Of a DNA stretch of 64,000 bases, positions 53,833-62,943 are shown piece by piece. Location: the IMG/VR virus record IMGVR_UViG_3300017917_003843, positions 1 to 64,000 of that record; one strand, written 5' to 3'. Both the position numbers and the translations under genes were made by a program. Positions within the stretch are counted from its first letter, which is position 1; each line of letters opens with the position of its first letter. The notes below the pieces were generated by a model. The model was not told the origin of the DNA. It saw nothing but the letters and a program-made list of their open reading frames with translations, and did not search any database. This DNA comes from a virus.

Positions 53833-54615
53833 TTAAATATCTATGCAACCGTCATTATAATAATCATTAAACAACTCAGCATATATCGATTTTAATTTTT
53901 TAGTAATTTTAGTAATTTGAGGTGTATCTACATCAACAATTTCTCTAATGTAGATATACAATGCTTTTTTATTAAAAATATCCAAATTTTCTCTTTTACG
54001 AAATAACTCCATAATAGCATCTGCTGTTTTAGCATCTATTTCTTTAGAAAATAATTTATTAATATTTTTATCAATATATTGAACATACAAATTTATAAAT
54101 TCAGTTAAACTATTATCTTGATTATAATGTTCAACCATCGTGTCTTCTTTGATTTTTTTATCATCGTCAACTTCATTTATATCTCCTTTGTCTTGTAGTT
54201 TTTGATAATTTTTCTTATTTTTAAGAATTAAATAACGTTTAGCAATTGTACCAAAATAAGAATATGCTTTACCTTTATTAGGTTTAAACAATTTTAATTT
54301 TTCAAGTAAAAAAGCAATTACTTCTTGTTGTACATCTTCTACTGATTCTCCATCAGTATAGTAGAATTTAAACGTATGAATAATATTTTGAGTTAACTTA
54401 AAAAAAGCATATTCAATACGTGTACTATATATATGATTTCTAATTTCTTGATCATCAGATAACACATATTGGATAATAGCTTCTTGAGTATCCTCAGTAA
54501 AATAGGTATTAGACGTTTTAGGTTTACGTTTACGTATTTTTCCAGATTTAGTAAACTCAACTACAATCTCATCCTCTAATAATGGTTCGGGTTTACTTAG
54601 TTCTTGGGTTATCAT
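53833..54615 (-). CDS. 55: Late-transcription sigma factor, gp55-like
   Basis: 260 aa (T4 gp55 is 185). Sigma region 2 resemblance lies in AFFKLTQNIIHTFKFYYTDG, SVEDVQQEVIAFLLEKLKLF and KPNKGKAYSYFGTIAKRYLI, the pattern of gp55-type sigmas in T4-like phages. The N-terminus has a basic patch (KSGKIRKRKPKTSN). In T4, gp55 with gp33 and the clamp gp45 directs host polymerase to late promoters. Here it probably reads the ATATTTAT motif. Neither gp33 nor gp45 is seen in the window. It overlaps the upstream gene by 23 nt. Confidence 0.85.
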   Translation of the reverse strand: MITQELSKPEPLLEDEIVVEFTKSGKIRKRKPKTSNTYFTEDTQEAIIQYVLSDDQEIRNHIYSTRIEYAFFKLTQNIIHTFKFYYTDGESVEDVQQEVIAFLLEKLKLFKPNKGKAYSYFGTIAKRYLILKNKKNYQKLQDKGDINEVDDDKKIKEDTMVEHYNQDNSLTEFINLYVQYIDKNINKLFSKEIDAKTADAIMELFRKRENLDIFNKKALYIYIREIVDVDTPQITKITKKLKSIYAELFNDYYNDGCIDI

Positions 54616-56233: not shown

Positions 56234-56261
56234 GTAAATGTACGTATATACGTTTGGTTTC
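56234..56261 (-). promoter_or_regulatory. Early/middle-type promoter P56.2
   Basis: Coding strand reads TTTG-GAAACCAAACG, N8, TACATTTAC, ending 17 nt before the corrected ATG. Confidence 0.7.
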
Positions 56262-56328
56262 CAAAAAAGATCGTTAAAAAAAAGAGTTTGCGGGTCGTGA
56301 ATTTTTTATCGAAAGGGCTATAATGGAT

Positions 56329-56358
56329 TTTGTGGGGTGAAATTTTGTGATATATTTG
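56329..56358 (+). promoter_or_regulatory. Host-type promoter for plus-strand RNA
   Basis: TTTG (56329-56332), 18 nt, TATATTTG (56351-56358): a near-perfect Bacteroidota sigma-A promoter (TTTG-N19-TAnnTTTG), on the strand opposite to the flanking genes and lacking the phage GAAACC block. Confidence 0.7.
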
Positions 56359-56361
56359 TAT

Positions 56362-56531
56362 ATACGCGCGCGTGGCCGAATTTTCGTAGTCTTGTTGAAG
56401 ATGCGGGGAAGTCCGCGGCCCATATACGCGCCGTCGATGGACCGCTATTGCCGTGGGCTCGTTTCGCCAGCGCTCCGTCAGCGCAGCGATAGTGAAGGCA
56501 CCTCTTTTGAAGGTGCCCTCTTTTTTTTTAC
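56362..56531 (+). ncRNA. GC-rich structured RNA of about 165 nt
   Basis: The segment runs from a host-type promoter to a strong terminator. It is much richer in G and C than anything nearby. Visible stems include GCGG/CCGC at about 56403-56416, GCCCA/TGGGC spanning about 56418-56458 and GCGCT/AGCGC at about 56470-56484. A direct repeat ATATACGCGC occurs near 56360 and 56424. Open frames across it read through the terminator and lack homology. A phage regulatory RNA is inferred. It matches no RNA family I can name. Confidence 0.6.
56497..56529 (+). terminator. Strong plus-strand intrinsic terminator
   Basis: GGCACCT pairs with AGGTGCC around CTTTTGA, followed by CTC and nine T. It ends the plus-strand RNA and faces the minus-strand gene at 56546. 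Confidence 0.9.
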
Positions 56532-56836: not shown

Positions 56837-56862
56837 AACTTTAATTTTTAAATTGTTATTAA

Positions 56863-57084
56863 TTATTTATTTTCACCTGAGAATATTCCAAATGCACCTA
56901 CGATTGCCCCAAACATGAATAATACATGAAAGGGTATTGTGTCCGTATTTGCATCTGCACCTATTATATTATACAGGGCAATAATCGTTAAGATTAATCC
57001 TGCAATCGCAATTACAACTGAACCTAATTCAAGATTTCTTTTACGTTCATCTTGAGCCTTTTTAATCATTTCTTTAGTAATCAT
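56863..57084 (-). CDS. Small membrane protein; start corrected
   Basis: 73 aa from ATG 57084 (MITKEMIKKAQDERKRNLEL). The in-frame ATG at 57108 lies in the conserved leader and is rejected. Two membrane helices are likely: SVVIAIAGLILTIIALYNII and HVLFMFGAIVGAFGIF. A cytoplasmic basic N-terminus follows the positive-inside rule. Function unknown; a membrane effector early in infection is possible. Confidence 0.65.
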   Translation of the reverse strand: MITKEMIKKAQDERKRNLELGSVVIAIAGLILTIIALYNIIGADANTDTIPFHVLFMFGAIVGAFGIFSGENK

Positions 57085-57130
57085 AACTTTAATTTTTAAA
57101 TTGTTCATTAATTATTTAACTTACTATACT

Positions 57131-57554: not shown

Positions 57555-57601
57555 AACTTTAATTTTTAAATTGTTCATTAATTATTAATTTTTACTACGA
57601 T

Positions 57602-62401: not shown

Positions 62402-62677
62402 ATGAAACGGGTAAAGAGATCAGAGGTAGGTTACTTTAAACGGCCGACGTCCGTCATTAAAGAAAAAAAAACATCAGTACACGACAGCCCAAGGAATAAA
62501 GATCCAGAACGCAACTGCATCCTGGATCTATTCACCACTTATGATTACATTTACTACTTAATTTCTAAATCACTCAATTCTGTCATAACATTTTCAATAG
62601 CTACTTTTCTCGGACGTCCTCGTCCTGCATATACCCCACTTGCTCTTTTCTCATTCAACGCAGCTAACCTTTGTTGA
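62402..62677 (+). CDS. Doubtful plus-strand frame downstream of the plus promoter
   Basis: 91 codons, basic N-terminal half (MKRVKRSEVGYFKRPTSVIK). The last 124 nt are antisense to the AT-hook protein gene. The ATG is about 30 nt from the expected start site but lacks the usual AAAGTT leader. The transcript could code for this peptide or act as an antisense or structured RNA. Confidence 0.3.
   Translation: MKRVKRSEVGYFKRPTSVIKEKKTSVHDSPRNKDPERNCILDLFTTYDYIYYLISKSLNSVITFSIATFLGRPRPAYTPLALFSFNAANLC
62501..62528 (-). terminator. Hairpin downstream of the AT-hook protein gene
   Basis: GATCCAG/CTGGATC stem, followed by TTTATTCC on the minus strand, 26 nt after the stop of the 62554-62901 gene. 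Confidence 0.55.
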
Positions 62678-62901
62678 CGAGGGCTGTTAGGATCAATTTT
62701 TCGTCCACGCTGAATTTCAACACCCGCTTCAATCAGCTGTGCTTTAAATTGCAAACGTGCTTGACGAGCACTGTTCGGATCAACCTTACGTCCACGTTGC
62801 TTTACTTCTACAGCTTCCATTTCTAGAATTTCAATTGCTGCTTCTACTGCTGTGTTGTCAATCGCTTCGATTTCAACAACTTTTGTTTTTTTACTTGCCA
62901 T
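62554..62901 (-). CDS. Protein with three AT-hook-like motifs
   Basis: 115 aa. Two copies of Q-R-G-R-K-[VI]-D-P-N-S-x-R-Q-x-R-L (about residues 35-50 and 64-79) and a third GRGRPRK near residue 95. The R-G-R core is the AT-hook DNA minor-groove binder. The N-terminal 30 residues are acidic and helical (EAIDNTAVEAAIEILEMEAV). Binding to AT-rich phage or host DNA is inferred. It could be a repressor or nucleoid protein. One-gene unit under P62.9. Confidence 0.65.
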   Translation of the reverse strand: MASKKTKVVEIEAIDNTAVEAAIEILEMEAVEVKQRGRKVDPNSARQARLQFKAQLIEAGVEIQRGRKIDPNSPRQQRLAALNEKRASGVYAGRGRPRKVAIENVMTELSDLEIK

Positions 62902-62943
62902 AACCTTTATTTGTTTTGTTTTTTGTTTTGTTTTAACTATGAA

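Follow-up and report, generated by a model that had tools for sequence, protein, structure and literature searches.

What is the role of a short, GC-rich, intergenic segment that runs opposite to the surrounding genes in a T4-like phage? The window analyzed here, a stretch of 64,000 nucleotides, is part of a 68,439-base virus record and encodes a T4-type terminase, a PhoH-like protein and a primase-like protein, as well as a protein with sigma-70 region 2 (positions 53833–54615). The latter is inferred to be a late sigma factor of the gp55 type, and the host to belong to the Bacteroidota. A sequence-only reading had interpreted the segment as an RNA gene with a host-type promoter and a strong terminator, and several of the features on which it drew are indeed present. 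On the plus strand, TTTG (56329–56332), an 18-nt spacer and TATATTTG (56351–56358) form a promoter-like pair; TTTG-N17–20-TAnnTTTG has four matches in the 64 kb when both strands are counted, and no other match ends in TATATTTG. The intrinsic terminator on the same strand (56497–56529) consists of the hairpin GGCACCT/AGGTGCC (56497–56517), CTC and T9 (56521–56529), and terminator-like sites in the surrounding 2.2 kb number 4, compared with 0.9 in shuffles. The GC content of the locus is 57% (150-bp windows) versus 30.5% for the window, whose highest GC peak lies here; the direct repeat ATATACGCGC occurs at 56360–56369 and 56422–56431; and the large ORFs are all on the other strand. The strongest feature of the locus, a series of 11-nt repeat units starting at 56443, 56454, 56465, 56476 and 56487, was absent from that reading.

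Homologs were sought by starting from IMG/VR loci that bear relatives of the sigma-like gene and searching the RNA region against them. The matches lie in the same place in the relatives, upstream of the sigma-like gene and on the strand opposite to the genes. A scan with the core pattern yielded 111 stretches and a profile search 142 matches, of which 117 are unique and 96 remain once near-duplicates are removed; nearly all homologs are uncultured metagenomic contigs. This conservation rules out a chance origin of the locus. In ten long records the core pattern is single-copy, the exception being a single overlapping match on the reverse strand, where one copy is palindromic. A search of isolated phages (50,697 isolate records) and plasmids gave no match to the element of a relative and only chance matches to the window query, and a protein search with the neighboring gene returned no relatives. 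A host origin was rejected: the scan of bacterial genome contigs produced 31 matches in unrelated bacteria, about the chance number estimated for 17 fixed bases. A coding function was also rejected, as the conserved ATG of GTCGATGG meets TAG in the many homologs that read CGCAATTAG and the 11-nt repeats break frame; plus-strand ORFs over the element are taken as spurious. On these alignments and searches, the locus is a single-copy, non-coding, GC-rich element common to more than 100 uncultured T4-like phages. No element is recognizable in 19 of the sigma-bearing loci that extend further than 2 kb upstream, an absence that is uncertain because many of them are short flanks. In one relative in which the element was not recognized (L075), a stretch of 53% GC lies ~3.4 kb upstream of the sigma-like gene and is followed by an A-run and a hairpin; it is possibly a diverged counterpart.

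The several possible stems proposed for the RNA turned out to be no more than expected by chance. The minimum free energy of the RNA is −63.6 kcal/mol, corresponding to a z of −1.42; of 200 shuffles, 18 do equally well or better. RNAalifold on 81 homologs gave −1.23 kcal/mol with 0 of 6 pairs compensated, consensus folding of 96 sequences had the same outcome, and the mean z for the folding stability of individual sequences was −0.12 over the 96 homologs. Corrected covariation scores revealed no helix among the covarying column pairs, and segments paired with their own partners no better than with partners swapped from another genome. A helix suspected by eye, CGATGGG/CCCATCG, was withdrawn because it did no better than swapped partners. 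Neither the window nor the loci of eight relatives gave an Rfam match at the gathering threshold, and permissive thresholds gave nothing or chance-level matches; a tRNA/tmRNA search found none. Of the proposed check by conservation and covariation in relatives, strong conservation was borne out and a covarying helix was not. The locus has no conserved fold, and its interpretation as a structured RNA gene fails.

A structure of a kind that these methods miss, such as a pseudoknot or a helix that shifts register, is highly improbable. It would accommodate three observations: on the RNA strand, the 5′ part has a slight folding advantage over shuffles (−0.32, s.e.m. 0.11); UGGACCGCA/UGGGAGCA, a small pairing in the core, hardly varies; and an alignment of the close clade reaches −13.5 kcal/mol, a weak result in which compensation affects 3 of 16 pairs. 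Set against these are the zero compensatory changes in 81 sequences with no covarying helix, the equal pairing of swapped partners and the empty Rfam result. Compared with shuffles, the core and repeats have a slightly lower tendency to fold, whichever strand is taken (+0.40 and +0.27).

What is conserved is an order of sequence elements: ATATNNGTATATAC, a variable spacer, the core GTCGATGGACCGC...TGGG, and then the 11-nt direct repeats. The palindrome GTATATAC, whose first copy in the window is at 56358–56365, is followed after ~78 nt by GTCGATGGACCGC. The intervening plus-strand spacer (56366–56431) varies in sequence and is nearly constant in length, with few alignment gaps; in 79 of 93 relatives, the palindrome region and the core are 79 or 80 nt apart. 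The core (56433–56461, plus strand) is the most conserved part, with most columns of GTCGATGGACCGC and TGGG at 1.7–1.9 bits. Across the 93 relatives profiled, the palindrome has G at 0.98 and the final C at 0.81; its TATATA was imposed by the search, which demanded a portion of the motif, and the perfect columns are to that extent built in. The same does not apply to the fixed distances at which the palindrome clusters or to its occurrence in one or two copies. In 73 of 95 loci, additional GTATATA/TATATAC motifs occur within 510 bp on the upstream side, most of them −172 to −196 or around −272 from the core; they amount to 142 occurrences versus 19 expected, where one GTATATAC counts as two.

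The repeats, with the consensus CCGCTATC, are direct and in strict 11-nt register, with 3 to 5 units per locus. Self-match at a lag of 11 is 0.437, with further peaks at 22 and 33, compared with ~0.17–0.31 at other lags; the unit boundaries, like the core regular expressions, were set after the alignment had been viewed. The window has five units: unit 0, CGCTATTG (56443–56450, plus strand); unit 1, TGGGCTCG (56454–56461), assigned to the minus strand; unit 2, CGCCAGCG (56465–56472, plus strand); unit 3, CGTCAGCG (56476–56483, plus strand), which is CGCTATCG in most relatives; and unit 4, CGATAGTG (56487–56494), which in the window is near the reverse complement of CGCTATCG. Most units have the forward orientation (CGCTATC). 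Across the family, unit 1 (TGGGAGC) is closer to the reverse complement, with a mean profile score of 1.85 in that orientation versus −0.92 forward, and some genomes, the window included, contain an inverted unit. Dyad symmetry within the repeat unit is only suggestive: the correlation of 0.62 is equaled by 8% of column permutations.

Is the locus transcribed, and from which promoter? Judged against the Bacteroidetes primary-sigma promoter (−33 TTTG, −7 TAnnTTTG), both boxes of the host-type promoter claimed for the RNA are found in the window, and the pair is not conserved. Of 91 relatives, ~29 have TATATTTG, and in just 1 of these 29, the window itself, is it preceded by a correctly spaced −33 TTTG. 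The putative −7 box (TATAT[TG][TC]G in relatives) takes the forms TATATTTG (28), GATATGCG (20), TATATGCG (13), TATATGTG (12) and TATATTCG (7), plus rarer ones, and this degeneracy weighs more against a conserved rightward promoter. The two-box arrangement is peculiar to this genome, and a conserved host promoter in this direction is not supported. RNA-strand terminators within 140 nt of the array occur in 31 of 89 relatives, versus 2–10 (~6) in shuffles of the same sequences, an approximately fivefold enrichment; here, as in all our comparisons with shuffles and permutations, each related genome is counted as if it were independent of the others. Terminators on the other strand number 13, versus 0–6 in shuffles. 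Because the RNA-strand terminators are enriched, the locus is probably transcribed on the plus strand, and the −7-like box and terminator of the window would delimit a transcript from 56363 to 56529 with no conserved structure. The RNA gene of the sequence-only reading is thus upheld as a probable transcript and not as a structured one.

A second, conserved host-type promoter, P_L, points leftward, along the direction of the genes. In the window it lies on the minus strand at 56235–56265, with TTTG (56265–56262), N19 and TACATTTA (56242–56235), and its spacer contains the second copy of GTATATAC (56244–56251). Among 65 relatives, a loose P_L pattern is found in 26, versus 1.2 in shuffles, and a strict pattern in 10, versus 0.2. 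The gene that P_L would drive differs between phages. ATATNNGTATATA, considered as a general promoter, was rejected because there are one or two copies per genome (one in four of the five genomes examined and two in G009).

A trans-acting small RNA that is largely unstructured, made as a short early transcript, with repeated CCGCUAUC binding protein or RNA targets as a sponge or regulator, is the main competing explanation of the locus, possible but doubtful. The terminators in 31 of 89 relatives would be expected of it, as would the full host-type promoter in the window and the orientation of the locus opposite to the genes in every genome examined, and conserved small RNAs that are unfolded are known in this phylum. 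GibS of Bacteroides is such an RNA, conserved, largely unfolded and equipped with a terminator like the transcript proposed here, but no 11-nt repeat array is described for it (PMC7366714). The GibS model matched the window at chance level only, on the other strand. The explanation is weakened by the rightward promoter, which relatives do not conserve, by low foldedness that is equal on the two strands, and by the fact that a single-stranded decoy needs neither fixed spacing nor an 11-nt register. A more specific version, in which such phages widely encode largely unfolded decoy RNAs whose CCGCUAUC in 11-nt register titrate a host or phage RNA-binding protein, is quite unlikely. Should the locus act as RNA, these phages would have in it a conserved RNA that is invisible to structure-based searches.

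A DNA site bound by protein is favored over a structured RNA because conservation is at the level of sequence, the repeats are phased with the helical turn, spacing is nearly fixed, the locus is single-copy and there is no fold. We therefore consider the locus to be tentatively an iteron-type cis-acting DNA site, most likely for the initiation or control of phage replication and comparable with T4 oriE, and assign this reading a probability of about 0.42. In such a site, a phage or host DNA-binding protein would occupy the 11-bp units, which are aligned on approximately the same side of the helix, and GTATATAC would be bound by a second factor; the resulting nucleoprotein complex, acting with transcription that starts at the flanking promoters, could open or license the site and so start or control phage DNA replication. 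Counted in its favor are the 11-nt periodicity with its harmonics, the presence of GTATATAC at the element and again in P_L, and the persistence of the locus beside a divergent gene that changes. Counted against it are a GC skew with no inflection at the locus, the weak dyad symmetry of the unit and the neighborhood, in which no initiator gene was identified beside the locus. The enriched RNA-strand terminators also count against it, as they suggest that the transcript itself may matter.

The same arrangement could serve another cis-acting DNA function, namely a partition or centromere-like site, a packaging site or a regulatory array for the leftward promoter, which we regard as unlikely. Partition sites also have phased direct repeats beside a promoter, and the occurrence of GTATATAC both at the array and within P_L would suit such functions. 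However, inspection of the conserved neighbors recognized no partition gene, and the terminase gene is ~36 kb from the locus in the window. The divergent gene that adjoins the locus was rejected as its dedicated partner, since this gene varies between phages while the locus persists. In 44 relatives, the divergent neighbor belongs to a family of 50–95-aa proteins with LTKEAF...GLTLEQ. Small AT-hook-like proteins with RGRP repeats are also common near the element, in relatives and in the window (~62554–62902, minus strand).

The proposed replication site resembles T4 oriE in layout and not in sequence, and its origin activity is putative. T4 oriE contains evenly spaced 12-nt repeats that are kept in syntenic regions of related phages, and the role of these iterons has not been established (PMC3016281). 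The repeats here are likewise short, direct and evenly spaced (11 nt) and keep their position among relatives. The T4 record describes the oriE primer RNA as complementary to the transcript of gene 5; the RNA strand of our locus is also opposite to the neighboring genes. In contrast, the T4 origin coordinate is inside gene 5, whereas the array here is intergenic, GC-rich and unrelated in sequence. T4 oriE appears to depend on an early-mode promoter only (PMC3016281); here relatives do not conserve the rightward promoter, the host-type promoter that is conserved runs in the direction of the genes, and RNA-strand terminators are enriched. A switch in strand bias is not seen. In two long relatives of 166 and 174 kb (L189–L206), one strand carries nearly all genes and GC skew is nearly uniform, and neither in these genomes nor in the window does the skew inflect at the locus. 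T4 oriA and oriC also lie outside nucleotide strand-bias switches (PMC3016281). One genome has two blocks of strongly positive GC skew against the genome trend, 0.49 in L198 (15–20 kb) and 0.31 in L204 (130–135 kb). Within the stretch of T4 that was read, a repetitive protein segment of gene 5 near oriE (L225:2980–3140) gives one of the two strongest 12-nt periodicities, and it presumably corresponds to the published iteron cluster.

Two further systems invite comparison with the putative origin. The replication origin of the PLE satellite of Vibrio cholerae also has repeats in a non-coding region (PMC8263062), but the PLE iterons are semi-palindromic units of ~30 bp bound by a known RepA, and no initiator was found here. 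The RNA-based origins of extrachromosomal mycobacterial prophages are likewise small, non-coding, transcribed regions implicated in phage replication (PMC7157519); those prophage replicons lie near parABS, and no such cassette was recognized at our locus. If the locus is an initiation site, a large group of uncultured T4-like phages would have an iteron locus that lies between genes and is under no coding constraint, and, because the role of the T4 iterons is still undefined (PMC3016281), it would offer a cleaner system in which to study what iterons do. Under either the DNA or the RNA reading, the locus marks abundant environmental phages that are unmatched in the isolate records, and it is a control site that can be tested.

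Two other repeated motifs were noted. On the minus (gene) strand, TATATTTAT is concentrated between genes, with seven of the eight window copies intergenic and a similar distribution in four relatives (also L189–L224), and is a candidate for a late promoter of the phage; it is a different motif from TATATTTG. A repeated leader resembling AATAATTAATGAACAATTTAAAAATTAAAGTTATG precedes small genes on the minus strand, at ~56837–56872, 57089–57115 and 57557–57590, and is probably what had earlier been called the phage promoter block.
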